From positions 241,642,833 to 241,706,832 of the forward strand of contig CM054060.1 in assembly GCA_028641055.1 (NCBI GenBank): DNA of 64,000 nucleotides. The letters run 5' to 3'. The translations under genes and the position numbers were made by a program. The notes beneath the pieces are model-generated. The model was not told the origin of the DNA. It saw nothing but the letters and a program-made list of their open reading frames with translations, and searched no databases. This document shows positions 5,858 through 30,495 of this stretch, in pieces (the first letter of the stretch is position 1; each line of letters starts with the position of its first letter). Source of the stretch: Alopecurus myosuroides. Taxonomy: Eukaryota > Streptophyta > Magnoliopsida > Poales > Poaceae.

Positions 5858-6062
5858 GAGAGAATTCCAATTTACCCCCTTAATTTTGTCTAATTTGTCT
5901 CAAGGTTTAATTTAGGATGCTCAACTCTCATTTGGCATTTGGTTCAAGTTTCACCCCTTAACTCTAAAAGCTGAGTCCCAAATACACCCATTTCACCATT
6001 TGACAAATTCAACTCAAGGAGTTATGTACACGAAATGGTATATTTTTGTTTAAGATGTATAT
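5858..6062. repeat. Left arm of a foldback/MITE-like element
   Basis: This arm (about 5858-6040) is an imperfect inverted copy of 40050-40198. Shared words in opposite orientation include CTCAACTCTCATTTGG, AACTCTAAAAG, and AATACACCC followed by TTTCACCA. The two arms became separated when the chromovirus inserted at 6063. Together they would form an element of roughly 370 bp with arms of about 150 bp and a short loop. There is no coding capacity. The outer ends and a target duplication were not resolved. The flank 5760-5857 shows nothing recognisable. Confidence 0.6.
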
Positions 6063-7429: not shown

Positions 7430-7818
7430 GTAGTCCCCAGAATAGCTTGGGCTTCACAGGATCCTCTTTCAAGCGCACGCTATTCCCTGCAAAATTATCA
7501 AACTTACAAGTTCAATGGAGGCCGGGTTAACTAGCTTTGATAAATAGCTAGGCCTAACTCCACGGTGGCCATATAGTAACCCGGCTTTCTCCAAGTCTTT
7601 ACTTATCTTCCCGGGTTAACACCCTGATAAGAATCTTAAGGATCCGGCTAACTTTACTCGATAATTGACCCTGATGTTGCGGAGAAGATCTCCTTCTTAT
7701 TTCCGTCCGGATATCCCGCTCAGCACCCAAAGCACACCCCACAGAATCCAGGCAAATAGCCGTTAACCCGAAATTTCCGGCTGCCACCCGTTGGGCTAGG
7801 TTTATCCACCCACACCCT
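7430..7818 (+). promoter_or_regulatory. Probable promoter region of the antisense gene
   Basis: Non-coding stretch between the LTR and a TATA box. It contains several CCGGGTTA/CCGGCT words and no credible ORF. Its promoter role is inferred from the TATA box, 5' intron and ATG that follow in order. Confidence 0.45.
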
Positions 7819-7826
7819 TATAAATA
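7819..7826 (+). promoter_or_regulatory. TATA box of the antisense gene
   Basis: TATAAATA in the context CACACCCTTATAAATAAG, about 800 bp upstream of the predicted ATG at 8624 and about 270 bp upstream of a 5' UTR intron. Transcription would start around 7850 on the plus strand, opposite to the element's genomic RNA. Confidence 0.6.
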
Positions 7827-8092
7827 AGTGCTTAGAGGTAAACCTAACCACGACGGCTCATTTCCCCCTTTCCTCTTTCTCTTCGCCTCCACACCCAAAC
7901 TCACAGAACATCATCACGGAGACTTCACGTGTGTCACCAGAGACAATCTGCCGCCGGCTGCGCTCCGCCACGGTTCGCCCCGCGCCACCGCCAAGATCCG
8001 CCGCCGCGCCCCCGACCTGCCCGCCGGGAATCCAAAAGGGGCATCAAGCTTGTGCTATTTGCCTCCGTCGGGCTTCACTTCGATCTCCTCCA

Positions 8093-8614
8093 GTAAGTCT
8101 CTCATATCCATTAACTTGTGCTTGCAATTTCTCGATTTACTTCAGATTAGATCTAAGTCAACCCGTCGGTCATTTTTCTGGTCACGCCGAATTAGGTCGC
8201 TCGAATTCATTCTAACTCATCCAACGGATTGAATATAGACTTCACTTTACTCCCCTACTGCCCATAGTCACTAATTTCACCACAAATCTAGAAATGGAAT
8301 CTCCAATCTAGGCTCGGGCCGCCCAAAATTTCCGCGCTTAACGTTGACACCCGGAAAATTCTCTTCTTCCGGCTCTTTTGTTTGCAGTAGATACAGAGGT
8401 AACCATCCGTCTTCCCCAAACACCTTTCAACACGTAAACCCTTCATAGTTTTTGTAACGATATTTGATACCCGGATAACTTGTAACCTTGCTCCATACAA
8501 TGATACTCGGATAACTCTTCGCTTCCATGTTTTCTTGATATCCCTCGCCAATATTCAGATGACTCATGGTTTCCGAGTCTTATTTCTTGTACCCTTCTAT
8601 CTTGTGCTTTGCAG
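8093..8614 (+). other. Predicted 5' UTR intron of the antisense gene
   Basis: The donor is CTCCA|GTAAGT at 8093. The acceptor is a T/C-rich tract ending TTGTGCTTTGCAG at 8614. The ATG lies nine bases after the acceptor. The intron would be 522 bp, leaving a 5' leader exon of roughly 240 bp. Confidence 0.6.
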
Positions 8615-8623
8615 GTTAATCCC

Positions 8624-8666
8624 ATGGCTCCCAAGAAGCAGGGGAAACAGTCAGCCAAGACCAAGA
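8624..8666 (+). CDS. First coding exon (5' piece) of the antisense Transposase_28-like gene
   Basis: The ATG at 8624 opens a short lysine-rich N-terminus (MAPKKQGKQ). The frame runs 43 nt to 8666, where the younger chromovirus is inserted, and resumes at 22645 after the second copy of the CAAGA duplication. Discounting the insert and one duplication copy, the phase continues without change into the long frame at 22645. The start is favoured because it directly follows the 5' UTR intron acceptor and because the frame matches downstream. Confidence 0.65.
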
Positions 8667-10424
8667 TGTCGCACCCGGACTTCTAGAGGATACTCGCAGT
8701 TCCGTTGAACAGTAGTGGATTGGATTACGGGGCTTACCGGCACCCGCGTCCTCTTACGAGTAGGCCAACACACGTAGGTGTGAGAACCAACCCCTATCTG
8801 TTCAGCGTCTATGTAAACCATCTCATAGAAATCAGGATACTACCATTGACGTACTTCATACCATACAAACATGGTACGTCAACGGCGTTGAACAAAATGA
8901 TAGCACAACATATCTCTAAGACACAAAAGATGGAAATAAGTTGCAACTAGCTCTCACTAGAGCAGAGATAGCAAATACAATCATCCAGAGGACACATGTC
9001 CCAACATAACATCATTACATCACATCGGAAGCATTCAACATGGTCTGAGTACAGACAAGATCCCAATAGGCTTAAGAAGCCGGAAACGAAAAGACGGAGC
9101 CCATCCACGAAGTCTCGGATCCTGCCCGGGTCCGCTATCTACTCGTCAGCAGCCTCGTCGTACTCCACGTAGTAGCCACCATGGAGATCCTCGGAAACGT
9201 CGTCTGCGGAAACCACAACCCCAAAGGGGTCAATACATAAACGTACTGGCAAGCAAGACTCACAGTTCACCAAAGTGTAACCCGTCAACACCAAGCACAG
9301 ATGCTTTGGGTTCAACGGAAGAAAGGGATGATATAAAAGATGCGGCAGCTGGCTGCACTAACCAACTACAGAACATACTACAACTTCCGGCTATCGGAAA
9401 GGAGATAAGATAGCGTATCGTAACCAACTACAACTAACTCCAAACAAACCCATCCTGGATCTCGCCCCTTATCCAAAGAAGCAATCCGAGGATAACTCAC
9501 ACAGTTGGATTAATGATGGTTCAAGTTATTGCGTCAATAAACCTATTACTAGTCAAGTTATTATAGTTAGGTGTAAGTTGTCTGAGTACTTGTTAGCCAG
9601 TACTTTCACCAAGTCGTCACATAACCGCGGACAACACGGCTTCTCGAGAAGATTCATCCCTGCAGGGTGTGCTCCAGTACCCGTACACACTCAAGCCACC
9701 AACTAAAACTCAGGTTGGCTTGACACGACTCGAACCATCTCTACAGCCTGTCCTAGGAGCCACGGAGCTATAAGGTCCCAGCCACGCAGCCGAATACTCA
9801 GTGCAAGTGTGCAAAACTCCCGCAGGACGCAACACCCCGGCAATACAGGCCTCGCCCTATATGTGTGCGTCATCATCATCATCAGTAACCATGGGAGCGA
9901 CCCATTTATGCGTATGAGCCAAATGGAACACCCGAACTAAGTGTGGCTCTTCGGACAAACTGCGGATCAAATCAAAGCCGAGGGGGGTTCCATACCACCA
10001 CCCGGATGCGGTGAGCACGCTCATCATGGATCAGTAGACAAGGCCCTTTTCCTAATTAGGGTCGACACTAGCAGGCCTCAAAAACCACGCCGGGCATCCT
10101 GCCGGTGCCTTATCATCAAATTATTATTACCCAAGCATTAACAGGTTAATTGTTTAACATCGAGCCCCAGAGCATAATAAATATGATAACCGAAGGTAAC
10201 TGACAACAGACTCGAGCAACAACAACCCTAAGCATGCTAGTAAGACACGGGCTCAAACAACGGGGTTATAGGAGTGGAGGTGAGGCAATATCAGGGTTCA
10301 GGGTATCATGTGGTAGGTTCGTAACAGAAGCAACGATACATACGGCTAGCAGAAAATAGACAACGGAAAGTATCGGTAACCAATTTTGAAAGGAACACAG
10401 TGGTTCATGCGAGTGATAACTTGC

Positions 10425-10502
10425 CTGCAAACTCAGCAGCCTGGTACTGAGCTAAAACCTCTGAAGGGGTGTCGCAAAGATCGTCGGTCTCAACGTCGTC
10501 GT
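10425..10502 (-). other. Exon-like 78-bp segment inside the LTR (left copy)
   Basis: On the minus strand the segment follows CGGATAG (acceptor-like) and precedes GCAAGT (GC-type donor). It has one open frame, containing LAQYQAAEFA after an acidic start. The same segment, with the same borders and length, occurs at 19910-19987 and, on the plus strand, in the outer element at 32808-32885 and 38194-38271. Function unknown. Confidence 0.4.
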
Positions 10503-11718
10503 CTATCCGAGAAGAAGCAAACAAACAACGCAGAGAGACAAACAATCAATAACATGGTATAATGCACAATCATGGGATGATGCATGACCATCTAATTGAT
10601 GCATAAAAAATAAACTAGTTGACATGGTAATAATATTAAATGGACCCCTATGCAATTGGGGTTGCATATGGAAAGCCCATGCATTTAGGTTGAAATAATT
10701 GTTTTACAACTAATCAACAGGTGAAAGTGGATTAGCATGATGCATGGATGATGAAAACAGAAAAATAACAACAATAGAAACAAGTTGAAATAAGGTTTAA
10801 CAAATTTGGAATTTTATTTATTAAGTTATGGAATTTTGGTTACTTAAAGGTGTCACACAAGCATTTGGTTGTTTTCATCAGGTTAAATTGTTCAAAACAG
10901 TAAACAAATTTTATATTTGGGTAGAGCATTTAATTTTAATTGGAAAACATATTTTATTTGTTGAAATTGGAATTAAAATGAATTAGTTATTAATTTGACA
11001 ATTTTAAATGCATTAAATAAGAAACAGTTGTTTTCAGCAATTTAAATTATTCAAAACAGCAAACAAAGTTGATATTTGCAAAGTTCATGAAAAATGGGAT
11101 GGAAAACATATTTTACATGTTGGGATTGGATTTGAATTTTGCAATTTAAAAGGGTTTAAGTAAAGCATTGAATTATTGAACCATTTTTAATTAGGGAAAA
11201 CAATAAACAAATTGCATTGAAAAGGTTGAAAACATGTAGCAAATGTTTCATTGAGAGCTATTAAACATAATTTTTGGGTTATTATTGAATTTATTATGCA
11301 ATTTTCCATAAATAGTCTTATTCTGCCCTTTTTAGTAAACAGAGGAAAACATGTTCAAAATTAATTCAATTGTGCCCAAATAAAATACCAATGTGTAGAG
11401 TTTGTTAAGACAAATTTTTAGAGCCCAATTTTGCTTAAATTGGATGAGTAGAACTAAAGTTATGAAATTCCAAAGTTTCCACTTTTTATTGCATTTTCAG
11501 TAATTAATTATTTAGTGCAAAAATTGTTACAGAAATATGTTGCAATTTTGTTACTAGTAGAAAGAGCACAAAAATTTGAATCCACATAAACTTGAATCAC
11601 TCAATTTGGAGCAAGATTCAATTTTTAATGGGTTTTTGAATTAATGGCTCAGATATGGGTTTCTGAGATTTCGGGCAGAAAGGAAAAAAAAACAGGAAAT
11701 AAAAGGGTGGGGGCTTGG

Positions 11719-11772
11719 GGAATCGAACCCAGGACCCAGGGTGTGCGCGCAAGGGGTTTAACCAGTGCGCTA
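11719..11772 (-). other. tRNA-like module 1 in the LTR (left copy)
   Basis: In element sense, TAGCGCACTGG (11772-11762) fits the Pol III A-box pattern. After 32 nt, GGTTCGATTCC (11729-11719) fits the B box exactly. Surrounding bases give a D-arm-like and a T-arm-like order, but pairing is poor and no functional tRNA is claimed. The same module is at 21227-21280. Confidence 0.55.
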
Positions 11773-11886
11773 CTGCTTCATTGCTGTTGGGATGTGAGAC
11801 TGACGAAGGAAGTGGTGTACACTCCTGCTGTAACTGAATTTAACATGGCAGGTGAAACAAAAAGCAAAGCTTAATGCTTTGGACGG

Positions 11887-11939
11887 GGATCGAACTCGTG
11901 ACCTCCCACAGCGCGCGCGGGTGCACTGCCAGTGCGGCT
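11887..11939 (-). other. tRNA-like module 2 in the LTR (left copy)
   Basis: About 115 bp upstream in element sense of module 1, AGCCGCACTGG (11939-11929) and GAGTTCGATCC (11897-11887) repeat the A-box/B-box pattern. The region ACGAG-TTCGATC-CCCGT can form a T-arm with four of five pairs. The same module is at 21395-21447. Confidence 0.45.
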
Positions 11940-13130
11940 GATGCTGGGTTCGTGACAGGGACGCGTTGCGAAGGGAGATAACATACAGCTAGGCGCTGTT
12001 TTTAACTGCAACTGCAAGTGCAGTTCGCTGAACCTAGCGAGCGACAGGAGCGTGCCCGCCGATGATCTCTGCTGCTCGCGGTGAGCTGCCGCGGGTGGCC
12101 GGTGGGTGCGGTTGCCGGGGGCGGTGGTCGTGCGGTGGGGTGAGGCGCTAAGAGTAGGGGAAGAGGAAGGAGGTGACTGCTCACCTCGGTCGACAGAGGA
12201 GCGGTCGCAGCGGTGGGGCGACGGTGGCGGAACCGTTGATGGCGGCGGAGCTCCGGTGATCCTCGGGGGGAGCCGAGGGCACGGCGAGGTAGAGGGGGTC
12301 GGGACCTTTCCGTTCCCGGCCCTAGCTCGACCGCTAGGGCACCGTGGCGGCGGCGCTTAGCCGGAGAGGGAGGCGGCGGTGGTGGCCTCGGTGGAGTTAC
12401 AGAGAGGAGAGGAAGGAGAAGCTGCGGCGCGAGGGGAAGGAGGGGTGGAGAGAAATTAGGGCGAGGAGGGGAGCTTCGAGGGCAAGGATTCTTAAGGGGG
12501 GAGGGGTGAGCTCGGATCACCGTTGTCTGCCTGAACATGTCGACGTGGGCACTGGAGATGGTTGCCGTACAAGGTAGAAGACGACCGAGGGGTTACCAGG
12601 CTTTGGACAGCTGGGCTGGCCCAAGTGGGTTGGGTGTCCCTTTCCCCCTTCTCTCTCTTTATTCTTTTTCCTCTTTTTTTTTCTTGCAGATTTGGGAAAG
12701 AGAGAAAAACCATTGGTGTTAGGGTTTAGCAAAATTTTTGGGGCAATGTTTTTATTGATTAAGTTTTGTAATAGCATCAAGTACCCACTTTGGTTTTCCA
12801 AAAAATTTAAATAGGTTGCTTGTTGAAAAATTAAATGAATTGATCCATTTTTGGTATCAAAATAAACAAATGAAACTTAAGCCAATTTAAGTTTTTTATA
12901 ACAATTTTGGTGGAACAATTATTTGTTTGTTTTGTAGCTTTTTATTGAAACAGGTAACATAACAAGTATGAACAATAAATGATTTGAATTTGGTTTGAAA
13001 TTACAATTGGAAAACAATGAAAACAAATGCAAACAAAAGGCAAAGGTTATGATGACATGATGCAAAGCAATAACAAAACAAGAAACAAACATCTAGGGGG
13101 GAGATTTTCATACTTGGGATGTTACAAAAC

Positions 13131-13140
13131 GCCCCCCCTT
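13131..13140 (-). promoter_or_regulatory. Polypurine tract of the inner chromovirus
   Basis: In element sense AAGGGGGGGC lies just before TTTTGTAACATCCC, the 3' LTR start. This is the plus-strand priming site. An identical arrangement is found in the outer element at 35463-35476. Confidence 0.8.
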
Positions 13141-13163
13141 GAAGGAATCGCGCCCCGAGATTC

Positions 13164-16100
13164 CTACTGAGAAAGGAAAAGGTCCGGATACTTCTTGCGA
13201 AGATCCTCTTTGGTCTCCCACGTTGCCTCTTTATCGGAATGATGCGACCACTGCACTTTCAAGAACTTGGTGCTCTTGTTGCGAGTCTTACGCTCGGTCT
13301 CATCGAGAATACGAATAGGGTGCTCCTCATAAGATAGATCTTCTTGCAGTTCAATGGAATCATGATCAACTGCACGCTCTGGATCTTTGAAACACCTCTT
13401 GAGCTGTGACACGTGAAACATATCGTGCACCTTGGATAGTTTTTCTGGAAGTTCAAGACGATAGGCATTTTCCGCACGCCTTGAGAGAATGTTGAAAGGA
13501 CCAATGTATCTTGGTGCTAGCTTTCCTTTGACACCAAAACGATGAGTGCCTCTGAGGGGAGTTACACGGAGATATGCTTTGTCACCAGGTGCATAGATCA
13601 TATCCCTGTGCTTGCTGTCATAGTAGCTTTTCTGACGAGACTGAGCAATCTTGAGATTGTCACGAATGATGCGAACTTTCTCTTCGGCTTCCTTAACAAT
13701 ATCAGGGCCTAAGAGTGAACGTTCACCAGCTCCAGACCAATTGATTGGACTCCTGCATCTGCGGCCATAGAGTGCTTCAAATGGTGCCATGCCTAGGCTT
13801 GCCTGGAAGCTGTTGTTGTAGGAGAATTCAGCATATGGGAGACATTCCTCCCATTTCATGCCAAAGGATAGACCACATGCTCTGAGCATATCCTCGAGAA
13901 TCTGATTGACTCTTTCGACTTGCCCTTGAGACTGAGGGTGATAAGCTGTGCTGAACCGAAGTTTGGTGCCCAATGCTTCTTGAAAGCTTTTCCAGAAATG
14001 AGAAGTGAATATGCTTCCACGGTCTGAGCTTTTTTCCAAAGGAACACCATGAAGAGGAACAATCCTTGTTGTGTAGAGCTCTGCTAACTGGCTAGCTGAG
14101 ATTGTTTCTTTGACAGCAAAGAAGTGAGCTACCTTAGTGAGACGATCAATAACAACGAAGATTGCATCGTTGCCCCTCTTGGACTTTGGAAAACCAGTGA
14201 CGAAGTCCATTTCAATCATGTCCCACTTCCACTCAGGTATTTTCAGAGGCTGGAGAAGACCGGCTGTTTTCTGATGAACTGCCTTAACACGTTGACAAAC
14301 GTCGCATTCAGAAACGTATTGAGCAATTTCACGTTTCATGCCAGACCACCAATACAGTGTCTTGAGATCCTGGTACATCTTTGTACTTCCAGGATGTATG
14401 GAGAGAGGAGTTTCATGAGCCTCCTTGAGAATAACATCTTTGAGACTTTGAATTTGAGGAACTGCAATGCGTCCTTTGAAGAACACAGTTCCCTTGTCAT
14501 CAATTGAGAAGCACTCATACTTCACATTGCCTGCTTTGATGTTATTTGCGATCTTCTTGATCTCAGCATCACGAAGTTGTTTAGAACGAATCTTATCCTC
14601 GAGAGTTGGACTGGCTGTCAAGTTTGCAAGATAACCTCGAGGAACAAGACCAAGGTTCAGCTTCTGGAATTCTTCATGAAGTGGAGGTTGGCTTTGCATG
14701 ATCATGAGATTATTGCAATACGACTTGCGACTGAGAGCATCGGCCATAACATTAGCCTTGCCTGGAGTGTAAGAAATGGTAAGATCGAAGTCTTTGATCT
14801 TTTCAATCCATCTCCTTGGTCTGAGGTTTAGATCTGGCTGAGTGAAGATGTATTTCAGACTCTTATGATCGGAAAAGATTTCAGTGCGATTACCCAACAA
14901 GTATTGCCTCCATTTCTTGAGGGCAAACACAACTGCTGCAGGTTCTAGGTCATGTGTGGGATAATTTTGCTCATGTGCATTCAACTGACGTGAAGCATAA
15001 GCCACAACTTGACGTTCTTGCATAAGAACTGCTCCTAGACCTTGGAGGGAAGCATCACAGAATATCTGGAAGGTTTGGTAGTATCTGGGCCAACCAGAAC
15101 TGGTGTAGAAGTGAGTTTAGTCTTGAGGAGATTGAAACTTTCATCACATTGTGGAGACCAAATGAACTTTTTGTCCTTCTTTGTGAGATCAGTGAGAGGT
15201 TTGGCAATCTTGGAGAAGTTTTGGACGAAACGACGGCAATAGCTAGCCAAGCCAAGAAAACTTCTTACTTGCTTCACTGTCTTAGGAGGTTTCCAATCAA
15301 CAATTGCCTTAACCTTTTCTGGATCAATGGCTATGCCCTTGGCAGAGATGACATGACCAAGGTAAGCAACTTCTGGAATCCAGAACTCACATTTGGAGAA
15401 CTTGGCATACAGACGATGCTCGCGAAGCTTCATGAGAGTGAGACGAAGATGTTCTCCATGCTCTTCCTCGGATTTTGGGTAGACAAGAATATCATCAAGA
15501 TATACCACAACGAACTTGTCGAGGTATTCATGGAAGACATAATTCATTAGTCGAGAGAATGTCGCCGGTGCATTGGTGAGACCAAAGGACATGACGGTGT
15601 ATTCATATAGACCGTAGCGAGTGGTGAAGGCTGTCTTTGGAATATCTTCCTTTCTGATCTTTATTTGATGGTAACCCATTCTCAAGTCCAGCTTGGAGAA
15701 TATTGAGGCTCCAGCAAGTTGATCAAAAAGATCATCAATACGAGGAATTGGATACTTGTTTTTGATGGTTTTCTTGTTAAGAGGACGATAGTCAACAACG
15801 AGTCTCTTTGTTTGATCCTTCTTCGCAACGAACAGAGTTGGGCAACCCCAAGCCGAGGAACTAGGTTAAATGTAGCCTTTCTCCATGTACATATCGATTT
15901 GCTCCTTCAACAACTTCAGTTCAGGAGGAGCTATCTTGTATGGATGCTTAGAGATTGGAGCAGTGCCTGGTTCAAGTTCGATCACGAACTCAACTGCTCT
16001 GTCAGGAGGCATTCCTGGCAATTCTTCTGGAAAGACATCAGGGAAATCACAAACCACCGGAATAGTTTCAATAGATGGTAGAGGATTTGCATTGAGGGTG

Positions 16101-17542
16101 TAGAGTTGAGCAACTGGATTTTCAGCATGGAAGTAGACTATCTGGCCAGAAGGGTGTGCGATTTTGACAGACTTAGCAGGACAATCAATGACTGCTTTGG
16201 TGGTTACCAGCCAATCCATCCCAAGAATGACATCAATATCTGAAGAGTGGAGAGCTATCAGAGATGCCTGGAATGGAAGGTTTCCAATTGTGATCTCGAT
16301 GTTCCGGCTAACTTTATTGCTTTGCCAGCTAGATCCCGGTGATTTCACTAGGAGGGGGATAGACAACTGTTCGAAATTGATTCCACTGTTGTTTGCAAAG
16401 CATTGAGAGATGAAAGAGTGTGAAGCACCAGAATCGAACAAGACTTTAGCACGAAACGAGTTCACAAGAAGTGTGCCCATTACAACCTCTGGAGATTCTT
16501 CTGCTCCCTGGGCCTTGACATGGTTCACCTTCACAGTTCTCAAGACAGACTTGTTCCTGTTGCGGGGCCTAGGCGAAGAAGTGTGTACCAGCACATGATT
16601 GACCTTAGGGATAGGTAGTGATGGTAGCTTGTTCTGAGGGCCCTTGTAGGAGTAGTGTCCTGGTAGACCGCACTTGAAGCATGTACTAGCAGAACGAGGA
16701 GCTGTTGGACCTGGCTGAGATGGAGCACCTCCTGAAGATACCACTTGGGTGGGAGGGCGGGCAAGAAATCCTGCCGGGCTTGGCAAGCAGATGGGCGGTG
16801 TTGGAGTGGTATATGGAACCCAAACTCTTCGTTTTTGTGGAGGCATGATAGCTTTTGAAAGATTAGCCTGTTCACGAGAATGTTTACGAGATTCCTCAAC
16901 CAATTTGCGCCCATGCTCTTAATTTGGAGCGATGTTGATGAGGTCCTCAAAATTCTTGGCCTTGACGTTGGTGAGAGCATACTTGAGTTCCGGGTTGAGA
17001 CCCCTGCGGAACTTTGCCATCTTTCTCGCTTCCGTGGAGATTTCATCTCCGGCGTAGCGAGCCAGACGATTGAACTCTCTTTGGTATTCGAGAACGTCCA
17101 AACTGCCTTGTGTGAAAGAATAGAATTCCTCACGCATTTTCTCCATGAGCCCATCGGGAATGTGATGGCGCACGAAGGCTTGCTTGAAATCCTCCCATGT
17201 GATTGCCACACTAGAACCTCTCATTTCTTGGAAGTTCTCCCACCAAGACATAGATTGCCCACGGAGAAGGTAGGTCACGTAAGGAACACGGTCCTCGTCA
17301 GCCACATGAGCTACCATAAGAGTACGGTTCATTTCACGGAGCCAGTCATCAGTATCCAATGGCTCGGAGGAGGTATCAAACGTGCGCGGATTGAGCTCAA
17401 GGAACTCCCGAATAGACACCCGGGTGTTGCCATTACTCCCAAGGTCTTGGTTCTGCTGCATCTGCTTTATAACTTGTGTCATCTGAGACAGCACTTTCCC
17501 CATCTCAGGTGGCAGTGTGTGTTCTTCGTCACCACTTTCCAT
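13164..17542 (-). pseudogene. Chromovirus gag-pol polyprotein, broken
   Basis: Reads from the ATG at 17542 down to the stop at 13164. Order: gag capsid-like region (about 17400-16960); a zinc knuckle at about 16680 whose last Cys is replaced (CFKCGLPGHYSYKG); protease VLFDSGASHSFIS (about 16440); RT start (FPDVFPEELPGMP, about 16020); RT core with [10 protein letters not shown] (about 15510); RNase H; integrase with zinc finger CDVCQR (about 14300) and the D,D,E region ([20 protein letters not shown]). The last ~55 residues, ending in [14 protein letters not shown], resemble a chromodomain, typical of chromoviruses. Breaks: in-frame stops at 16921-16919 and 15868-15866, and a frameshift near 15085. 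The proteins would package and integrate element RNA, but this copy cannot make the full product. Confidence 0.93.
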
Positions 17543-18131
17543 CCTGAAGAGGATACCAAGATTAACACACCAACCGGATAACAAAATCCAATATAAGTGG
17601 TTAAAAGGATTACTTCAGACGGTAAGTCGACAGCATAGAACAAGGATGGAGGTTAACAACGGATCAACAGATAAGTTGTTACAACGGAAGAGAAGATTTA
17701 TGAAGGACGATATCGAAGCAACAACTGGGAAACAGGAGACCACAAACACCTAAGGTACTACGGAGAAAAACCCATCCGGGCTTCTAAAGGATCAATATCT
17801 ACTGCTTAAGGAATAGAGGATCTGCTTCTGGGGCTTACACGCCTCCGTTCTCAATCGTGAGTAGGCAACATGATAAATCATGTCACAACCACCTCCATTC
17901 CTATGGTCTAGTAGATATAACGATCCTAGAGGAACCAGGATTCGTGAAAACCTAACTTGAAAGTTTAGATGAGAAAGAGAAAACAATGTTGCACTTCCTT
18001 ACCAGAAAAGGGAGGGTGGGTGGGGAAAGAAATAAAATGGCAGAATTCCTACTCTCACGTTTCATTTTTCCTATATAGCTACGAAATAGTTTCTAGACTC
18101 AACTGCGACCAGTAAAAGGGATCCTACAGGC
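17543..18131 (-). other. Leader between primer-binding site and gag
   Basis: About 590 bp of untranslated leader in element sense. It is homologous to the leader of the outer element at about 34663-35100. No convincing ORF. Confidence 0.7.
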
Positions 18132-18149
18132 AGACAGGCTCTGATACCA
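18132..18149 (-). promoter_or_regulatory. Primer-binding site of the inner chromovirus
   Basis: In element sense TGGTATCAGAGCCTGTCT lies two bases after the 5' LTR end. TGGTATCAGAGC is the standard complement of the initiator-methionine tRNA 3' end used by many plant retrotransposons. Confidence 0.9.
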
Positions 18150-19909
18150 TTTGTCGCACCCGGACTTCTAGAGGATACTCGCAGTTCCGTTGAACAGTAG
18201 TGGATTGGATTACGGGGCTTACCGGCACCCGCGTCCTCTTACGAGTAGGCCAACACACGTAGGTGTGACAACCAACCCCTATCTGTTCAGCGTCTACGTA
18301 AACCATCCCATAGAAATCAGGATACTACCATTGACGTACTTCATACCATACAAACATGGTACATCAACGGCGTTGAACAAAATGATAGCACAACATATCT
18401 CTAAGACACAAAAGATGGAAATAAGTTGCAACTGGCTCTCACTAGAGCAGAGATAGCAAATACAATCATCCAGAGGACACATGTCCCAACATAACATCAT
18501 TACATCACAGCGGAAGCATTCAACATGGTCTGAGTACAGACAAGATCCCAATAGGCTTAAGAAGCCGGAAACGAAAAGACGGAGCCCATCCACGAAGTCT
18601 CGGATCCTGCCCGGGTCCGCTGTCTACTCGTCAGCAGCCTCGTCGTACTCCACGTAGTAGCCACCATGGAGATCCTCGGAAACGTCGTCTACGGAAACCA
18701 CAGCCCCAAAGGGGTCAGTACATAAACGTACTGGCAAGCAAGACTCACAGTTCACCAAAGTGTAACCCGTCAACACCAAGCACAGATGCTTTGGGTTCAA
18801 CGGAAGAAAGGGATGATATAAAAGATGCGGCAGCTGGCTGCACTAACCAACTACAGAACATACTACAACTTCCGGCTATCGGAAAGGAGATAAGATAGCG
18901 TATCGTAACCAACTACAACTAACTCCAAACAAACCCATCCTGGATCTCGCCCCTTATCCAAAGAAGCAATCCGAGGATAACTCACACAGTTGGATTAATG
19001 ATGGTTCAAGTTATTGCGTCAATAAACCTATTACTAGTCAAGTTATTATAGTTAGGTGTAAGTTGTCTGAGTACTTGTTAGCCAGTACTTTCACCAAGTC
19101 GTCACATAACCGCGGACAACACGGCTTCTCGAGAAGATTCATCCCTGCAGGGTGTGCTCCAGTACCCGTACACACTCAAGCCACCAACTAAAACTCAGGT
19201 TGGCTTGACACGACTCGAACCATCTCTACAGCCTGTCCTAGGAGCCACGGAGCTATAAGGTCCCAGCCACGCAGCCGAATACTCAGCGCAAGTGTGCAAA
19301 ACTCCCGCAGGACGCAACACCCCGGCAATACAGGCCTCGCCCTATATGTGTGCGTCATCATCATCATCAGTAACCATGGGAGCGACCCATTTATGCGTAT
19401 GAGCCAAATGGAACACCCGAACTAAGTGTGGCTCTTCGGACAAACTGCGGATCAGATCAAAGCCGAGGGGGGTTCCATACCACCACCCGGATGCGGTGAG
19501 CACGCTCATCATGGATCAGTAGACAAGACCCTTTTCCTAATTAGGGTCGACACTAGCAGGCCTCAAAAACCACGCCGGGCATCCTGCCGGTGCCTTATCA
19601 TCAAATTATTATTACCCAAGCATTAACAGGTTTATTGTTTAACATCGAGCCCCAGAGCATAATAAATATGATAACAGAAGGTAACTGACAACAGACTCGA
19701 GCAACAACAACCCTAAGCATGCTAGTAAGACACGGGCTCAAACAACGGGGTTATAGGAGTGGAGGTGAGGCAATATCAGGGTTCAGGGTATCATGTGGTA
19801 GGTTCGTAACAGAAGCAACGATACATATGGCTAGCAGAAAATAGACAACGGAAAGTATCGGTAACCAATGTTGAAAGGAACACAGTGGTTCATGTGAGTG
19901 ATAACTTGC

Positions 19910-19987
19910 CTGCAAACTCAGCAGCCTGGTACTGAGCTAAAACCTCTGAAGGGGTGTCGCAAAGATCGTCGGTCTCAACGTCGTCGT
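19910..19987 (-). other. Exon-like 78-bp segment inside the LTR (right copy)
   Basis: Same length and borders as 10425-10502, ending at a GCAAGT donor-like word in element sense. Confidence 0.4.
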
Positions 19988-21226
19988 CTATCCGAGAAGA
20001 AGCAAACAAACAACCAGGAGAGACAAACAATCAATAACATGGTATAATGCACAATCATGGGATGATGCATGACCATCTAATTGATGCATAAAAAATAAAC
20101 TAGTTGACATGGTAATAATATTAAATGGACCCCTATGCAATTGGGGTTGCATATGGAAAGCCCATGCATTTAGGTTGAAATAATTGTTTTACAACTAATC
20201 AACAGGTGAAAGTGGATTAGCATGATGCATGGATGACGAAAACAGAAAAATAACAACAATAGAAACAAGTTGAAATAAGGTTTAACAAATTTGGAATTTT
20301 ATTTATTAAGTTATGGAATTTTGGTTACTTAAAGGTGTCACACAAGCATTTGGTTGTTTTCATCAAGTTAAATTGTTCAAAACAGTAAACAAATTTTATA
20401 TTTGGGTAGAGCATTTAATTTTAATTGGAAAACATATTTTATTTGTTGAAATTGGAATTAAAATGAATTAGTTATTAATTTGACAATTTTAAATGCATTA
20501 AATAAGAAACAGTTGTTTTCAGCAATTTAAATTATTCAAAACAGCAAACAAAGTTTATATTTGCAAAGTTCATGAAAAATGGGATGGAAAACATATTTTA
20601 CATGTTGGGATTGGATTTGAATTGCCCAAGTTATGAATTTTGCAATTTAAAAGGGTTTAAGTAAAGCATTGAATTATTGAACCATTTTTAATTAGGGAAA
20701 ACAATAAACAAATTGCATTGAAAAGGTTGAAAACATGTAGCAAATGTTTCATTGAACATTTAGAGCTATTAAACATAATTTTGGGGTTATTATTGAATTT
20801 ATTATGCAATTTTCCATAAATAGTCTTATTCTGCCCTTTTTAGTAAACAGAGGAAAACATGTTCAAAATTAATTCAATTGTGCCCAAATAAAATACCAAT
20901 GTGTAGAGTTTGTTAAGAAAAAGTTTTATAGCCCAATTTTGCTTAAATTGGATGAGTAGAACTAAAGTTATGAAATTCCAAAGTTTCCACTTTTTATTGC
21001 ATTTTCAGTAATTAATTATTTAGTGCAAAAATTGTTACAGAAATATGTTGCAATTTTGTTACTAGTAGAAAGAGCACAAAAATTTGATTCCACAGAAACT
21101 TGAATCACTCAATTTGGAGCAAGATTCAATTTTTAATGGGTTTTTGAATTAATGGCTCAGATATGGGTTTCTGAGATTTCGGGCAGAAAGGAAAAAAAAA
21201 CAGGAAATAAAAGGGTGGGGGCTTGG

Positions 21227-21280
21227 GGAATCGAACCCAGGACCCAGGGTGTGCGCGCAAGGGGTTTAACCAGTGCGCTA
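21227..21280 (-). other. tRNA-like module 1 in the LTR (right copy)
   Basis: A-box-like TAGCGCACTGG and B-box GGTTCGATTCC, 32 nt apart, unchanged relative to 11719-11772. Confidence 0.55.
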
Positions 21281-21394
21281 CTGCTTCATTGCTGTTGGGA
21301 TGTGAGACTGACGAAGGAAGTGGTGTACACTGCTGCTGTAACTGAATTTAACATGGCAGGTGAAACAAAAAGCAAAGCTTAATGCTTTGGACGG

Positions 21395-21447
21395 GGATCG
21401 AACTCGTGACCTCCCACAGCGCGCGCGGGTGCACTGCCAGTGCGGCT
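21395..21447 (-). other. tRNA-like module 2 in the LTR (right copy)
   Basis: Unchanged A-box-like and B-box-like words relative to 11887-11939. Confidence 0.45.
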
Positions 21448-22644
21448 GATGCTGGGTTCGTGACAGGGACGCGTTGCGAAGGGAGATAACATATAGCTAG
21501 GCGCTGTTTTTAACTGCAACTGCAAGTGCAGTTCGCTGAACCTAGCGAGCGACAGGAGCGTGCCCGCCGGCGATCTCTGCTGCTCGCGGTGAGCTGCCGC
21601 GGGTGGCCGGTGGGTGCGGTTGCCGGGGGCGGTGGTCGTGCGGTGGGGTGAGGCGCTGAGAGGAGGGGAAGAGGAAGGAGGTGACTGCTCACCTCGGTCG
21701 ACAGAGGAGCGGTCGCAGCGGTGGGGCGACGGTGGCGGAACCGTTGATGGCGGCGGAGCTCCGGTGATCCTCGGGGGGAGCCGAGGGCACGGCGAGGTAG
21801 AGGGGGTCGGGACCTTTCCGTTCCCGGCCCTAGCTCGACCGCTAGGGCACCGTGGCGGCGGCGCTTAGCCGGAGAGGGAGGTGGCGGTGGTGGCCTCGGT
21901 GGAGTTACAGAGAGGAGAGGAAGGAGAAGCTGCGGCGCGAGGGGAAGGAGGGGTGGAGAGAAATTAGGGCGAGGAGGGGAGCTTCGAGGGCAAGGATTCT
22001 TAAGGGGGGAGGGGTGAGCTCGGATCACCGTTGTCTGCCTGAACATGTCGACGTGGGCACTGGAGATGGTTGCCGTACAAGGTAGAAGACGACCGAGGGG
22101 TTACCAGGCTTTGGACAGCTGGGCTGGCCCAAGTGGGCTGGGTGTCCCTTTCCCCCTTCTCTCTCTTTATTCTTTTTCCTCTTTTTATTTTTTTTCTTGC
22201 AGATTTGGGAAAGAGAGAAAAACCATTGGTGTTAGGGTTTAGCAAAATTTTTGGGGCAATGTTTTTATTGATTAAGTTTTGTAATAGCATCAAGTACCCA
22301 CTTTGGTTTTCCAAAAAATTTAAATAGGTTGCTTGTTGAAAAATTAAATGAATTGATCCATTTTTGGTATCAAAATAAATAAATGAAACTTAAGCCAATT
22401 TAAGTTTTTGATAACAATTTTGGTGGAACAATTATTTGTTTGTTTTGTAGCTTTTTATTGAAACAGGTAACATAACAAGTATGAACAATAAATGATTTGA
22501 ATTTGGTTTGAAATTACAATTGGAAAACAATGAAAACAAATGCAAACAAAAGGCAAAGGTTATGATGACATGATGCAAAGCAATAACAAAACAAGAAACA
22601 AACATCTAGGGGGGAGATTTTCATACTTGGGATGTTACACAAGA

Positions 22645-25600
22645 CCACCAATTCCATATCCGCCAACTGGGCGCGATCTACTGTTACGAAGGCCAAGTTG
22701 GAAGAACTGGCCGAATTAGGAGTTCTCCCCTCCCAAAAAGATATCCATTGGAGGGTGCCGGGTAACGAGACCCGGCCCACACCTGCCGATGATGAGGTAA
22801 TATGTTTCGTGGAGCACGTGACCCGGGGATTCCGTCCTCCGGGTCACCCTTTCTTTCGAGATATTCTAAGCCACTATGGCATTCGGATATTTGACATAGG
22901 GCCTAATTCTGTGTTAAATATTTCCCACTTCATTGTCCTTTTCGAGTCATACTTGTGCACTCCGCCAAGCTTGGCTCTTTTTATCGAACTTTTTCAGTGC
23001 AAACCGTGCCGCGAAAGCGGTGACGGGGCACTTCTCGCTTGCGGCGGGGTCTCTATCCAGCGCCGCAAGAATTCTCTAATGCCACCCCTCACTCTCAACT
23101 CCCACGTCAAACACTGGCAGCTTTCATATTTTTACTGCCGGGACACCTCCCCACCCGGCCAAAAGAAACTGCCGGGTTACTCAGAGGGCCTCCTCGATAT
23201 CTCCGAGACCTTCAACGCCTTTGCCCCTGACTCGGACATGGAGGCAATTCAGCCTTTATTGGCCAAAATAACTATTCTCTCGGCCCAAGGTCTCATTGGG
23301 CTTAACCTGGTAAAGACTTGGGTCGATTTCCGGATCCAACCCAACTCCATCCGCACAAAGTTAATGTGCGAGTACTCGGGGCATACCACGGACTCGCTCC
23401 GATACTCCACCAATAGCTTTGCAGCCGGAGACACCAACAAGACTATCAAGAGCTTCTTGACAGAGAAGTTGGAAGTAATCCGGAACATAGCCGGGTTAGA
23501 ACCCTTCACTCGTGAGAACCCGGCGCCTGAGGTACTTATCCGACTTTCATACTCTTACCTTCACACTTTCCACTCGATACTGTTGTTAAGCTTCATTCTT
23601 ACGTCTTCATCTCAGGCCGATGATGCTTTTTGGAAGATTGATACTCCCCCTAACTCTGAGCGCCCAGAGGAGAAAGAGGACGCCGTTAACTCGGATGAAG
23701 GTACATTCCGAGTTTTACTTAGTCACTTTAAGCTCATCGTTGCTCTTTCGTCATTTTCCAACTATAAACCTTGATAATTTTCAGAACAAGAGGACAAAGA
23801 CGAAGAAGAAGAAGCTGAAGGCAAGGTAGAATCCGCCAGCGACGAGGAAGAAGCTGAGCCGACGGTCAAGGCCGGAACAAAGAGGAAATCCCAAGGGGTC
23901 GCCTTCAAGGTTCCATACCTTTTCCTTGCCTCTAAACCATATTTCTTTGATAACATGCACGAGCTAAACCGGAAATTATCCACTTGGTCGTATTTGAAGG
24001 AACCGCTCGTGACCAAGCGCCGAATAACTCGGAACTTTCTAGGTGATGGCACTCTTAATCCGGGTATTCCGTCGTCTCCGGCTCAACGCGCTGGTATTCT
24101 CTTAATCCTTTCTTAAGTATCAAAGTCTTCCCGAACCATCCCCTTACGGGACAATTCCACATCTCGCTCGATGTTTTTCAGTTTCGTCCGGGTCCAGCAG
24201 CGAGTTCCCCTCGGACTATATGGTGAATCCCGGGTAAAATTCCTTTCCTGATGCTTTACCGTTTGTTCATCACTTTTTTCCGCTAACTGCTTTACTTATA
24301 CTACCCGTAGGGCCACGATCACTGTCAGCGACCAAGATGATATGGAAACTGACGACCCGGGTAAGGAGAACCTGACTGATGATATGCATGCCGCAGCTGG
24401 CGGAGAAGAACAACAAGTGCCACCAATAAACCCAGCCGACCGAGAGGCCGCCTATCCCATAGCATCGCATGTACTCGAGGAGGAAGAAGCTGCAGACTTG
24501 GGCGCGGGAGAAAGGGCACCGGACTCCGATACTCGGACAACCCGGATACCCTCTCTCACCAAGAAGAGGGTTCCTCCTCCAAGTCCCCAAGGTCCCGGGT
24601 CTTCCAATTTGGGCAATGATACTTTTGACCAGATGATGAACACTCTCCTTGCTATGAAGGCCTCGGAGAGAGATGTGCTAGAACGCATGGCCGCAGAGCA
24701 CCAGGTAATGTTACCTAATATCTCTTCTTATCCATCTAGTCCCCAAGTGCCGAGTATAATTTGTTGAAATTGTGCTCGGTATTATGCGTGATAATCGGCT
24801 TTGCCATGATACCCGACTAATTCTCATACTTTGGTTTCTCACAGGCACAGGCCACTCGGTCTAATGAACTTTTGCTCAAGACCGAACAACTGCTGCTTGC
24901 CGAGGTAAAGCGGAGAGAGGCCCTTGAGGATGAAGTGGAAACTTTGAAGAATAATGTTTCCAAATATAAGAAAAGGTGCACTAATGCTCGAACCGCACTG
25001 AAAAAGTTGTCGGAGCAAATTACCGATACTTATCGTATCTTGCTTAGTTAGTTTCTTGCTGCTGACCGCTTTCGTGGCTCTGTTTTGTTACATGATACTC
25101 GGAATTACTGATATGGCCTTTCTTTGTTTCAACTGCAGGTGCTAACCTTGCAGCCCCAGAAGAAGATGTTGTTGCCAAGGCTAAAACTTTAAAGACTGTA
25201 CTCCAGACTTTCTTTGCCGGCACCAAGTGGATATTGGATGCCGTGAAGTGGCCAACTGAAGTATATCCGGGTGAAGAAAATCTTATCCAAGCCTGCTCCA
25301 CTGTGCCTGCATGGATCGAGATCTGGAAACGCTCGGCATGCCGGATTGGTATGACCCGGGCCTTTGCGCTGGCTAAGGCTTATTTTCCTAAGCTTGAGCC
25401 GGCAAAAGTGATATCCGGGTTTCCAGAATTCAAAGCAGACGGCTCCAAGTTTGGGCCCAAGGACTTCAAGGCCGTACAATCCGCAGTGCGTCACTCGGCA
25501 ACCACTTTGGCCGATAGTATGGATCTGGGTACGCTTATGAGTTCGTACGATGCTGAAGGCAAAATCGTGAAGGAGGAAGCACCCCCACCGTTCGACATTT

Positions 25601-25824
25601 TGGAGAAATGGGCTGCCGATTCGGCCAGGAAAAGGGAAGAAACCGCGAAGAGGAAGGCCGAGTTAGGATCAGAGCCAACCACCTCTACACCGGCTATCCT
25701 CCCGCCTGTCCGTCCTGATGCGAAGAATCCGGGTAACGATGCCGGGAGGGCTGCAGAGCAAGCCCAGGACCAAGACCCGGAGGGCAAGGGCAAGGGTGTG
25801 GGCCCTATTCAAGAAGCCGAGTAA
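22645..25824 (+). CDS. Antisense spliced gene of the Tat-like element (Transposase_28-like protein), main part
   Basis: Predicted coding segments after the piece at 8624-8666: 22645-23531, 23616-23700, 23785-24093, 24182-24233, 24311-24704, 24845-25034 and 25139-25824. Every intron (84, 84, 88, 77, 140 and 104 bp) begins GT and ends AG, and all phases agree. The total is 2646 nt, 881 codons plus stop. The N-terminal ~280 residues resemble the plant family Pfam calls 'putative gypsy type transposon' (PF04195), for example FESYLCTPPSLALFIELF. The middle is acidic and low-complexity (a run of Glu at about 23800-23840, then KRKS). Segments 24600-25034 are charged and helical, probably coiled coil. 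The C-terminus is a helical domain followed by a Pro/Gly-rich tail. No transposase catalytic triad is visible and the biochemical role is unknown. The gene is opposite to gag, so its introns would not be removed from the genomic RNA. It is broken here only by the chromovirus insertion. Confidence 0.75.
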
Positions 25825-26891
25825 ACAAATGTCATTACGATGCGTTGGTCGTTTCGATGCTCTTGTTCGAAACAGATATTCTTTTGTCGGTGCACCTGTG
25901 CGCCTTTGATACTAGTACTAAGATTTGTAACGTACTTTAATTCCTTGATATACCTCGTGCCTCTTCTGGCCTCTGGATGAACTTGATATTTATCTGGTTT
26001 TTGAGTTTATTCTTGATATCCGACTTTCTTTATGATTCTTTTTGTGAGACCCGGTTTCCGAGTTGCATGGATTTTGACAAGCGGACTTTTCTCTAAGTCC
26101 CCAAGTCCCAAGACTCGGATGTTTGGGTTTTTTGAGTTTTAGCAACTAAGCAACTTTTCCTTTTTTCAAAAATCTCCAGTACCCAAGACCCAAAATGCCG
26201 AGTCTGGGATGTATGGTTTTTCCAAGGGAACAAGTTGTTTGCTGCTAAGCCCAAGCCCAGAGCCGTTTCACATAGGTATTGAAGTTATGCTTGATAATCG
26301 TTGAGTTTCCGGCTATTAGCCTTGTACTCTGCATAACTTGTGGTTTAGATGACCCTTTTGACTATCTTGTACTGTAAGCCGGCTTTCGCGTGGATACCAT
26401 GTTGTTACATCTATACGAAAACAGGGCCAGGCAAGTCCCATTGGGCTTCATGGATGATTGTAATCGTAAGCGAGCAAATCATGCCACTTTAGTGCGAGTC
26501 ACATCGAGCTTAAGTAAGAAAAGTCATGAAAATTTGGCTCCTTTGTCCGGTTATAAGATTGCAGCCGTACTCGTTTGCGAGTAATTGGCCCTTATAACTC
26601 ATAGGCATCAAGGCCGGGTCTTTGAGTTTGTAACTGTGCTATTCAAGCAATCAGCCCTCAAGACCTATATATATGCAACATACTTGATGATACTGATGTA
26701 CTGGTGGCAATAGATAATACTTATCTGTAACCGGAGTGAAGATCATAACAAAATAAGACTTGATGACCATCTCTTTATTGATACGAGAAAGTTTTGGGTC
26801 AGCAGGCCGCCTCATTAAAAACCTTCCAGTCCCCTTAGGTGCCCTGGATAGGAAAAGAGTGCGTCTAGAACCTGCTGCCCGTTACATTGTT
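25825..26891. other. Spacer between convergent antisense gene and gag-protease gene
   Basis: Non-coding. It should hold the 3' UTR of the plus-strand gene (from 25825) and of the minus-strand gag-protease transcript (from 26891). The bases just beyond the gag-protease stop (26890-26780, minus strand) read like the 3' UTR of a complete gag-pol, suggesting that the missing polymerase was lost by an internal deletion near 26900-26930. No other gene seen. Confidence 0.55.
26774..26779 (-). terminator. Possible polyadenylation signal for the gag-protease transcript
   Basis: AATAAA on the minus strand, about 115 nt after the gag-protease stop. It would produce a subgenomic mRNA ending before the antisense gene. 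Confidence 0.4.
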
Positions 26892-29800
26892 TTAGTTCTT
26901 CTTGGGAGTCTGTCCGGTACTGAGGTAATCGATACACACTCTCCACTTGTTGGCCTTTTTTATTATGAGTACTGGGTTTGCTAGCCAATCCGGGTGAGGT
27001 GTTTCCATGACGCGGCTGGCTGTGAACGGCAGTGTGATTTCTTCTCCTGTGGCAGATTGTTTGGGGGGATCATGTTTGATGAAAGCCACCATCTTGGTGT
27101 CTTGTGCTGCCTTGAACTTTGCTTCTTCATCTTCAGTACTCTGCCTTTTCGATGCTGTTCTGTCATCCGGGTCTGTTTGAGACCGGTAATATTTGAGCTC
27201 CTCTTTTCTACAAGCTTGTTCAGCCATTGCTGCATCTCCTTCATCGCATTCAGCCGCTATGTCCCGGCTTCCATGTATGGTGATGGTATGTTTAGGACCC
27301 GGGATTTTTAGCTGTAGATACACATAACACGGCCTAGCCATGAATTTAGCATAAGCCGGCCTTCCGAATAGCGCGTGATAAGGACTGCGCAATTTGACCA
27401 CCTCGAACGTGAGCCACTCAACTCGATAGTTATCCTTTGATTCCCCAAAAGCTACCTCCAATGCGATTTTTCCCTCGGGGCACGCTGAGTGACCCGGCAC
27501 TATCCCATGAAAAATTGTTGAACTTTTTTGTAGCTGAGACTCCTTGAGACCCATGCGTAGAAAGGTTTCCCAATATAGTATATTGATGCTACTTCCACCG
27601 TCCATCAGGACCTTTTTCAGCTCATACCCATTGACCTGCGGCGCAACTACCAATGCTAAAACTCCCGGGTGTTCTATTCTTTCCGGGTGATCCCTTCTGC
27701 TCCATGTTACGTCCTGTTCTGACCACCTCAGGTATCTTGGAACAGCCGAGGACACCGAGTTTACCGCCTGTTTCAGTATCTTCTTGTCCTTGTTGGAACT
27801 TCCTGTAGTATGCACGTGATATTGACCCAACTGCTTGGGGTTGGACTGGAAACCTCCAGCTCCCCCTTGGTTGTTACCTTGATTTCCGGCTGCCGGGTTA
27901 CCGGCTGGGGGTGGGCCGTTGCCCGGGTTTCCACCTGGACCCGGTCCTCCTCCCCGACCTGCACCTCGCATGGCTCTGTTCACTTCCTCGTTCTTCCACC
28001 TCTGTAGGTCGGCGCACTGCTCCAAGGAGTGGTTAGCTGGCCTACCGTTTCTGCTGTGCTTCGGGCATGCCATTCTGAAGATGTCCCAATTATTACTTGG
28101 CCTCGGTGGCCCTTGATAGTTTCCTCCATTGTGATTTCCAGTATTGAAATTTCCTTCTGCCCTGGGTCTTGAAGATCCGGCTTCAGTGTTGGCGACAAAC
28201 TCGGAGCCTCCCTCAAACGGGCGCTTGTTCTGGCTGTTTCCGTTGTTACCCGGCGCTGATCCATTGCCGGTTCTTCCATTATTACTTGTGTTTACTTTTG
28301 CTTTTTTATCGTCAGTTTCCTCTTCCGTGGTGACCGTTGCGGCGTGTTTGTTGCATGCATCCATCAGTTCTCCCATCGTAACCTCTGAAGCATTCCGACT
28401 AGATTTCATACGAGTTAATTTTTGTACTAAAGGTGTGTACTTGCAGGTCTTTGCCATAGCTTGCAGCGCATCCTTGGGCTGAATATCTGTAGATGAATGA
28501 AGTATTTCCATAACCCGGCGCACCCAGCTGCGCGCCGATTCTCCCTTCTTCTGAACACATCGCTCTAGGTCATCAATAGTGAATAACTTTCTGCACGTCC
28601 CGTGAAAGTGCTTGATAAACGCAGTTTTCAATTCTCCCCATGACTTGATAGATCCTTCTGGTAGATTGGTGAACCATAACTTTGCTGCTCCCTCTGACAT
28701 CATTATATACATGAATTTGACTTGAAGATTCTCGGAAGCATTGCGAATCGACATGGCCATCTCATAACTGCTCAACCATGTTTCCGGATCCATAGTCGGC
28801 TCATAATTCACTACTTTACCCGGTTCTTTGAACTTTTCCGGGTAAGGTTCGGCCCTGATGCTATCCGAAAGACACTTAGGTCCTGCAAGAATGGTCGAAG
28901 CTGATCTTACTCGGGAAACGTGTGATCCTGTAGGGGGTACAGCTGGACGCGGTACTGCTGGTGGCCCATGTACCGCGGACCCGGCCACGGCTCTCCTGGC
29001 TCTGGAACTGTCTACGATGGCCTGTGCTGCTGATGCTACTGCTACTGCCTGAATGTGTGGAGGAGGCGGCATTTGCTGCTGCTCTTCCCTCCGCCGTGCC
29101 GAACTTGTCTGGATATTTTCGGCATCACCTCGCTGTTGGCTGACATATGGTGTCCCATGCATTCCACTTCTGTGATCCGGGTAATTAACTTGTTGTGCCA
29201 CTGCAGTGCGCAGCATATCTATCGCCCGCCGCTCTCCTCTGCGTGGGGTGACTCTCTCACGGGGATTTGATTCAGTGCAAGCGTTGCCGCGTACACGTTG
29301 TCTATGGGATTGTTGTAATGACCCGCTGGTGTGCGAAAACGTGATGGTGGTGGTGGTGGCGGTACAGTATTGCCGGTAGTAACTCCAGTCTGTAGTACGG
29401 GTAACCCGGCCTGCGCGTCTACCGGTTGTATTCCTCCGGTTGTTGGCTGAGGGGCGGTTCCTTGATTTGCCGCTGGGATCGGCTGATCCTGAGGCGTGAT
29501 AAATAGCGCAGCCGGGTTTATGACTCCTCCCGATGCTGGCAATCTGGTTTGGTGCCTTTGATGTATTCTAGTCGTTTCCTCTCGGAGCCGGGTTTCCAGT
29601 GCATCCAGCTCGCGTCGTCGTGCGGCCATCCCTTGTCTTTCTGCTTCTACTTGCCTTCTCTGCTGCTCCAATGCACGACGGGCTACGTCCAAATCCCTAA
29701 CACGTTCCGCTGCGTTCTCTGGAGTGATAACTGTGGCAAGAACTGTCGGATCTAGGATCAGATTGTTGTCGAACAGGGCCGGATGTTGTGGATTGGAAGG

Positions 29801-30451: not shown

Positions 30452-30495
30452 GTTCTTCCGAGCTTCTCCCGTGATGTAAACACCTTTGGACGCAG

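Follow-up and report, generated by a model that had tools for sequence, protein, structure and literature searches.

Locus and gene model

The stretch of DNA analyzed in this work, hereafter the window, comprised 64,000 nucleotides of Alopecurus myosuroides (assembly GCA_028641055.1, contig CM054060.1, positions 241,642,833 to 241,706,832 of the forward strand). Three nested elements were resolved in it by self-comparison: an outer chromovirus-like element, a host element of the Retand/Tat type lying in the left long terminal repeat (LTR) of the outer one, and a further chromovirus (chromovirus 1). Antisense to the host element lies a spliced gene for a protein with the PF04195 domain (Transposase_28, here TRP28), which starts with an ATG at 8624 and is the main subject of this report.

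The sequence-only reading of this DNA had proposed TATAAATA at 7819, a 522-bp intron in the 5' untranslated region (UTR) and the ATG at 8624, all of which were found again in the sequence. Its spliced frame of 2646 nt without an internal stop was likewise re-derived from the same exon chain. The seven segments of that earlier model (22641-23531, 23616-23700, 23785-24093, 24182-24233, 24311-24704, 24845-25034 and 25139-25824) summed to 2607 nt with the terminal stop as the sole stop, and 39 nt (8624-8662) completed the coding length. The open frame of the chain therefore stood, but its uniqueness did not: enumeration gave 648 open chains, and the ten with the highest scores took the donor at 25047, not that of the earlier model at 25035. 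Moreover, the stretch 23910-23999 was probably one further intron of 90 nt, because its composition was intron-like (T 0.34, GC 0.39) and the alignment with P0006, an Alopecurus aequalis protein described below, stopped exactly at 23910 (GVTFK), where the window has a GT. With this extra intron, seven introns would follow the ATG, and the antisense gene would thus have seven or eight spliceosomal introns in all.

As a control for chance, the longest open chain with at most six GT-AG introns and an in-frame start at 22641 was determined in 60 dinucleotide-preserving shuffles. Against 2781 nt in the real sequence, the shuffles had a median of 1071 nt and never exceeded 1587 nt, so that none reached the real value; the longest single stop-free run was 377 codons, and 1000 shuffles gave none above 289. 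The open spliced frame lies beyond chance. Plant introns are typically U-rich, and all eight proposed introns were T-richer (0.34-0.43) than any of the eight exon pieces (0.07-0.25), while GC was 0.35-0.43 in the introns and 0.44-0.60 in the exon pieces (computed with two intron borders displaced by one base).

In the large exon, the PF04195 domain was matched at residues 54-121 (E 4.4e-20; 72.1 bits, gathering cut-off 26.2), covering profile positions 1-68 of 69, and it was the sole Pfam match above cut-off in the exons scanned (22641-23531, 24312-24704, 24845-25045 and 25141-25821). The product of 24845-25046 matched coiled-coil families, each below its Pfam cut-off, and this segment is predicted to encode a probable coiled coil. 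The domain, the acidic linker and the probable coiled coil that had been read from the DNA were recovered in an antisense, intron-containing gene. The search of the translated exons against PF04195 and the structure databases, which had been suggested as a check, gave the domain; by sequence, no convincing match was obtained among solved structures, and fold searches, made with a poor model, were empty.

Relatives of the protein and probable conservation of the first intron

Three protein searches yielded 124 listed proteins (P0001-P0124), the last search contributing the best 120 of 203. Among the matches listed, the closest were P0084 and P0006, the latter from A. aequalis. P0084 was identical to the main exon 22641-23531 at 198 of 296 residues (67%), and P0006 was identical at 96/151 residues in exon 1, 14/27 in exon 2, 15/26 in exon 3, 20/63 in the coiled coil and 102/219 in the last exon. 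Homologues thereby matched five of the eight exon pieces. By eye, P0084 and P0006 both begin with MAPKPAPK..KGKT.., followed by a SISANWA block; the window protein begins with MAPKKQGK.. 5' of the chromovirus insertion and carries SISANWA 3' of it. The Lolium proteins, which made up most of P0001-P0124, were about 25-34% identical to the window protein across the aligned N-terminal part, and their N-terminal domain, linker, coiled coil and C-terminal segment followed one another much as in the window protein.

The sequence-only reading had held that the proposed splice sites should be conserved in related copies. Examined at intron 1 only, from the protein letters of the relatives, this expectation turned out in favour of a gene. 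The motif at the end of the N-terminal exon was held by 84 of the 124 retrieved proteins, and the 40 without it were left unscored. After the motif, 69 of the 84 continued with L-x-TLAE, P0006 with ESDKFW, nine with other residues and five with Val. The L-x-TLAE group and P0006 were named, annotated entries; the Val continuations (P0056, P0058, P0069, P0084 and P0089) were open reading frames (ORFs) of short contigs without annotation. A GT codon (GTN, Val) thus stood at the exon end in all five unannotated ORFs that reached it, the sixth, P0118, stopping earlier. The Val continuation is what would be seen if translation of a GTN codon carried the frame directly into an intron.

Two of these ORFs, P0058 and P0069, ran on through gaps of about 71 and 79 nt to exon 2, which lay in a different frame; the gap lengths differed by 8 nt and so not by whole codons, as an intron would lead one to expect. 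Against the exon-2 peptide of P0055, P0058 showed 40/40 compatible residues (maximum 8 in 150 shuffled peptides), and again 40/40 against a second model, P0052; P0069 showed 17/40 against the exon-2 peptide of P0054 (maximum 7 in 150 shuffled peptides). In the window, intron 1 has 84 nt; as in these relatives, it has phase 0 and lies at the end of the N-terminal domain. The window family and the Lolium-type family are about 28% identical in this domain, and the automatic alignment set their intron-1 positions about a dozen residues apart; the simplest reading is that both are one old intron, whose positional homology we infer. The protein letters of the relatives support the first intron and most of the reading.

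Host element, interruption and nesting

The coordinates of all features are collected in Table 1. The host element has the near-identical LTRs (471 of 476 positions) and target-site duplication (TSD) of an LTR retrotransposon, together with sites resembling a primer-binding site (PBS) and a polypurine tract (PPT) recognized by eye. Its pol ends near the start of reverse transcriptase (RT), the sense ORF stopping at 26895 where RT should continue, and the Pfam search gave no protease in this ORF. No pol domain (E≤1) was found in 20 of 22 further minus-strand ORFs of at least 60 codons in 7430-8661 and 22645-26894; two minus-strand ORFs of 60 codons lay outside that scan and the two gag-frame ORFs were counted separately. 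An element from which any of GAG, AP, RT, RH and INT is missing counts as non-autonomous, which applies to this one. The Tat-type element without most of pol and with an antisense gene, as originally described, was borne out.

The Retand criterion of PMC11963269 (Vicient 2025), a TRP28 ORF lying antisense in the interval from pol to the 3' LTR, describes the arrangement in the window. The LTR (476 bp) and, after subtraction of the insert, the internal region (9,108 bp) and the distance from pol to the 3' LTR (5,487 bp) all fell within the Retand ranges given there (315-1,194, 7,380-12,869 and 2,933-6,566). The host is accordingly a young Ty3 LTR element of the Retand/Tat type; it lies on the minus strand and is assigned by these features, as its RT is too truncated for a tree.

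Chromovirus 1 carried RNase H, integrase and a chromodomain by Pfam and RT by eye, and it was flanked by an exact 5-bp duplication (CAAGA at 8662-8666 and 22640-22644). Coding exon 1 is split by this 14-kb insertion, so the full protein cannot be produced from this copy. The claim that the element "has kept a complete gene" does not hold for the window, and any full protein must therefore come from other copies.

The outer element 6063-40030 had LTRs of about 4.5 kb and an internal sequence of just about 0.8 kb, and it was regarded as a non-autonomous relative of chromovirus 1. The longer LTR matches between the two were 83-92% similar and in opposite orientations. Repeat units were also seen in the chromovirus LTRs at 10868-11179, 20353-20664, 31683-32300 and 37073-37686, with a spacing of mostly 159 bp and a varying copy number. 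The LTR divergence K was 0.0125-0.0130 for the outer element, 0.0106 for the host and 0.0083 for chromovirus 1, an order that agrees with the nesting. At a substitution rate of 1.3e-8 per site per year, the corresponding ages were about 0.5, 0.4 and 0.3 million years, the error for the host being large with just 5 changes in 476 bp.

Table 1. Positions of the elements and of the parts of the antisense gene in the window
Feature	Position	Strand	Remarks
Outer chromovirus-like element 2	6063-40030	+	left LTR 6063-6953, resuming ~30992-34642; right LTR ~35477-40030; TSD TATAT
Host 3' LTR	6954-7429	-	TG...CA on minus strand; TSD CTCCT 6949-6953
PPT-like stretch	7430-7450	-	adjoins 3' LTR; by eye
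Putative promoter TATAAATA (TATA box)	7819-7826	+	~390 bp inside LTR border
5' UTR intron	8093-8614	+	putative; 522 bp, ends GTAAGT...TTGCAG
Coding exon 1, start (MAPKKQGKQSAKT...)	8624-8666	+	final 5 bases = TSD CAAGA of chromovirus 1
Chromovirus 1	8667-22639	-	LTRs 8667-13126 / 18152-22639, 98.5% identical; sits in coding exon 1
Coding exon 1, remainder	22641-23531	+	297 aa, carries PF04195; homologue P0084
Coding exon 2	23616-23700	+	acidic linker begins; homologue P0006
Coding exon 3	23785-23909	+	acidic stretch, KRK; end at 24093 in earlier model; homologue P0006
Probable extra intron	23910-23999	+	90 nt, stop-free, T-rich; coding in earlier model
Coding segment	24000-24093	+	model only
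Coding exon	24182-24233	+	model only
Coding exon, low-complexity linker	24311-24704	+	model only; no Pfam match
Coding exon, probable coiled coil	24845-25046	+	end at 25034 in earlier model; Pfam matches below cut-off; homologue P0006
Last coding exon, C-terminal segment and stop	25139-25824	+	homologue P0006
Host sense ORF: gag, protease-like DGGSS, first RT residues	26895-29567	-	PF03732 E 2.6e-9; DGGSS and RT by eye
gag N-terminal part, different frame	29222-30451	-	frames overlap
Candidate PBS-like sequence TTGGCGCCCACCGTGGGG	30495-30515	-	adjoins 5' LTR; by eye
Host 5' LTR	30516-30991	-	TSD CTCCT 30992-30996

Discussion

Antisense ORFs with PF04195 are known in Retand elements. According to PMC11963269, 97% of young Retand clusters have them in the interval from pol to the 3' LTR, they occur in both monocots and eudicots, and they are characteristic of these elements; DNA binding was predicted for TRP28, to which the author notes no similarity outside transposable elements (TEs). 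Some Retand clusters are non-autonomous, and Table 1 of that paper lists two clusters of A. myosuroides (3b and 2) with GAG and AP and without RH or INT, where its text says one. Three further papers add to this. Transposase_28 was found in 23% of Retand elements (PMC6317226), PF04195 stood first among the listed domain counts on blackgrass extrachromosomal circular DNA (PMC10606437), and gene23 of Grande is reported to be transcribed from its own promoter with a nuclear product (PMC7264820), a paper that also calls for a search for antisense and spliced transcripts. The gene in the window is the Retand TRP28 gene, in an arrangement already in print, and its spliced multi-exon structure is resolved here. 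It shares with the Retand elements of PMC11963269 the PF04195 domain, the place between pol and the 3' LTR, the antisense orientation and lengths within range. It differs in that the paper scores single ORFs, whereas the window gene is multi-exon with a first intron seen in relatives, and in that the window copy is interrupted by a chromovirus. In the available text of PMC11963269 the word "intron" is absent and "splic" and "exon" are confined to the reference list, and no description of the intron structure of the antisense gene was found in the literature searched, mostly outside subscription papers.

Maize Grande gene23 is alike in being an antisense accessory gene in a long 3' internal region, and its reported features are an own promoter and a nuclear product (Gomez-Orte 2013, via PMC7264820 and PMC11963269). 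The Lolium proteins annotated as "Transposase (putative) gypsy type" share PF04195, acidic linker, coiled coil and C-terminal segment with the window protein and differ by their low identity in the aligned N-terminal part; in their unannotated relatives the frame leaves the N-terminal exon through a GTN codon. HBZ of human T-cell leukaemia virus type 1 (HTLV-1) is spliced, and it contains both an acidic region and a leucine zipper. HBZ, which is named in PMC11963269, resembles the system in outline as a nuclear regulator encoded by the antisense RNA of a retroelement after integration, a role that for the window protein would hold by analogy. The likeness is one of mode of action, and no sequence relation is claimed. 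In HTLV, antisense transcription starts from a promoter within the 3' LTR (PMC7264820), whereas the TATA box of the window lies inside the element, adjoining the LTR.

We consider it likely that the locus is a Retand/Tat element with an antisense spliced TRP28 gene, which has its own promoter-like TATA box and would have a nuclear product acting in trans. Several observations weigh against this. Two of the protein searches scored only the best 7988 and 7994 candidates by shared words, and among the matches listed the named relatives came only from Lolium and Alopecurus. The C-terminal segment is weakly conserved: its identity to the Lolium proteins was 16-25% by alignment, compared with 47% to P0006. 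P0006 has nothing aligning opposite 24000-24704, where the exons are without cross-species support. Since P0006 aligns at the ends and not there, both ends of the antisense gene are backed by a relative, while the middle exons come from the model only. In P0006 as annotated, the PF04195 stretch is also missing, through alternative splicing or an annotation error, although the parts flanking it match. With a second model (P0045), P0069 reached just 7/40, within what shuffled peptides gave. The window copy of the gene is interrupted, and the host gag is spread across two overlapping frames (overlap 29222-29567), which may reflect mutation or a programmed frameshift. The AlphaFold models were poor (mean predicted local distance difference test (pLDDT) score 57.3 and 51.8), and fold searches with the N-terminal one, itself poor, gave no match. 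DNA binding and regulation would therefore follow from literature prediction and analogy, and for a "regulated" gene, as it had been called, the basis is limited to the TATA box and the 5' UTR intron. The antisense gene is nevertheless real, well supported at its ends and ordinary in kind.

Other explanations were weighed against the same evidence. The antisense transcript might work as RNA, pairing with the sense RNA and feeding small interfering RNA (siRNA) silencing, with the frame as a relic; such a possibility was raised for antisense transcripts in PMC7264820, and it would suit a frame that is cut in this copy. However, a frame open so far past chance, a protein identity of 67% across 296 residues in a reading that stays conserved as far as the intron border, and the domain order shared with the Lolium proteins, low as their C-terminal identity is, make an RNA role unlikely. 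That PF04195 belongs to a DNA-transposon transposase which inserted into the retroelement and kept an enzymatic role is suggested by the Pfam name "Transposase_28". The curated description of the family is "putative gypsy type transposon", no second domain exceeded its cut-off in the scanned exons, and neither solved structures nor the fold searches, made with a poor model, offered a convincing match, so that we give this origin very little credence.

A recent capture (transduction) of a host gene by this family only would account for the cellular-style exon-intron structure, the TATA box and the 5' UTR intron. But an mRNA loses its introns on capture, and a gene acquired in this way would be intronless. 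Antisense PF04195 ORFs also occur in both monocot and eudicot Retand elements, with no TRP28 similarity outside TEs (PMC11963269), and a capture therefore appears quite improbable. Least probable is that ORFs and GT-AG pairs merely happen to line up without any gene: with flexible sites 648 open chains can indeed be drawn, but not one of the 60 shuffles attained the observed span, and homologues fall on five of the eight exon pieces.

For the favoured TRP28 gene, the following mechanism is proposed. Integrated copies would be the templates from which RNA polymerase II transcribes the antisense gene. Because a retroelement copies itself via its sense RNA, an intron in sense orientation would be spliced out and lost; the introns of the antisense gene would survive retrotransposition since they are present in the genomic RNA as the reverse complement and are not recognized there by the spliceosome. 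The protein would thus be made only from antisense nuclear transcription of integrated copies. The product may be a nuclear protein that oligomerises by its coiled coil, with the conserved N-terminal domain contacting nucleic acid or chromatin and the acidic linker contacting partners. It would act in trans on its own element family, its most likely task being the regulation of LTR transcription or silencing, and an autonomous relative would have to supply Pol to the pol-less element. Taken by itself, the role of a nuclear trans regulator of the element's own family, though the most likely one, is about evenly balanced. More tentatively, and as a possibility that we hold somewhat less likely than its opposite, TRP28 might be an ancient intron-rich gene, borne antisense in Retand across many cycles of reverse transcription, whose first intron is shared by families with N-terminal domains about 28% identical and whose product is an HBZ-like trans regulator that pol-less copies retain as their share in the family.

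Copying through RNA normally costs a retroelement its introns, and here a gene with seven or eight introns, the first of which distant families seem to share, is kept in antisense. The model predicts that Retand antisense transcripts are spliced mRNAs for one conserved protein. If this is true, surveys of single ORFs miss much of the TRP28 protein, namely the acidic linker, the coiled coil and the C-terminal segment. A concrete gene model is now available for asking what TRP28 does.

Other elements in the window

An LTR element at 46514-56293 had LTRs of 2.07 kb (97.15% identical) around an internal region of about 5.6 kb. Its single ORF of at least 130 codons was found at 52983-53387 (135 codons), and the element is probably non-autonomous. 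Within one base of the end of its right-LTR match begins a Ty1/copia element (56293-64000) with an uninterrupted frame of 1328 codons on the minus strand (57989-61972), whose LTRs were 98.8% identical over the visible part, the right one running to the window edge. Remnants of the long interspersed nuclear element (LINE) type, that is non-LTR, were detected on the plus strand at 3450-5356, with matches to RVT_1 (E 3.6e-32) and zf-RVT (E 1.7e-21).

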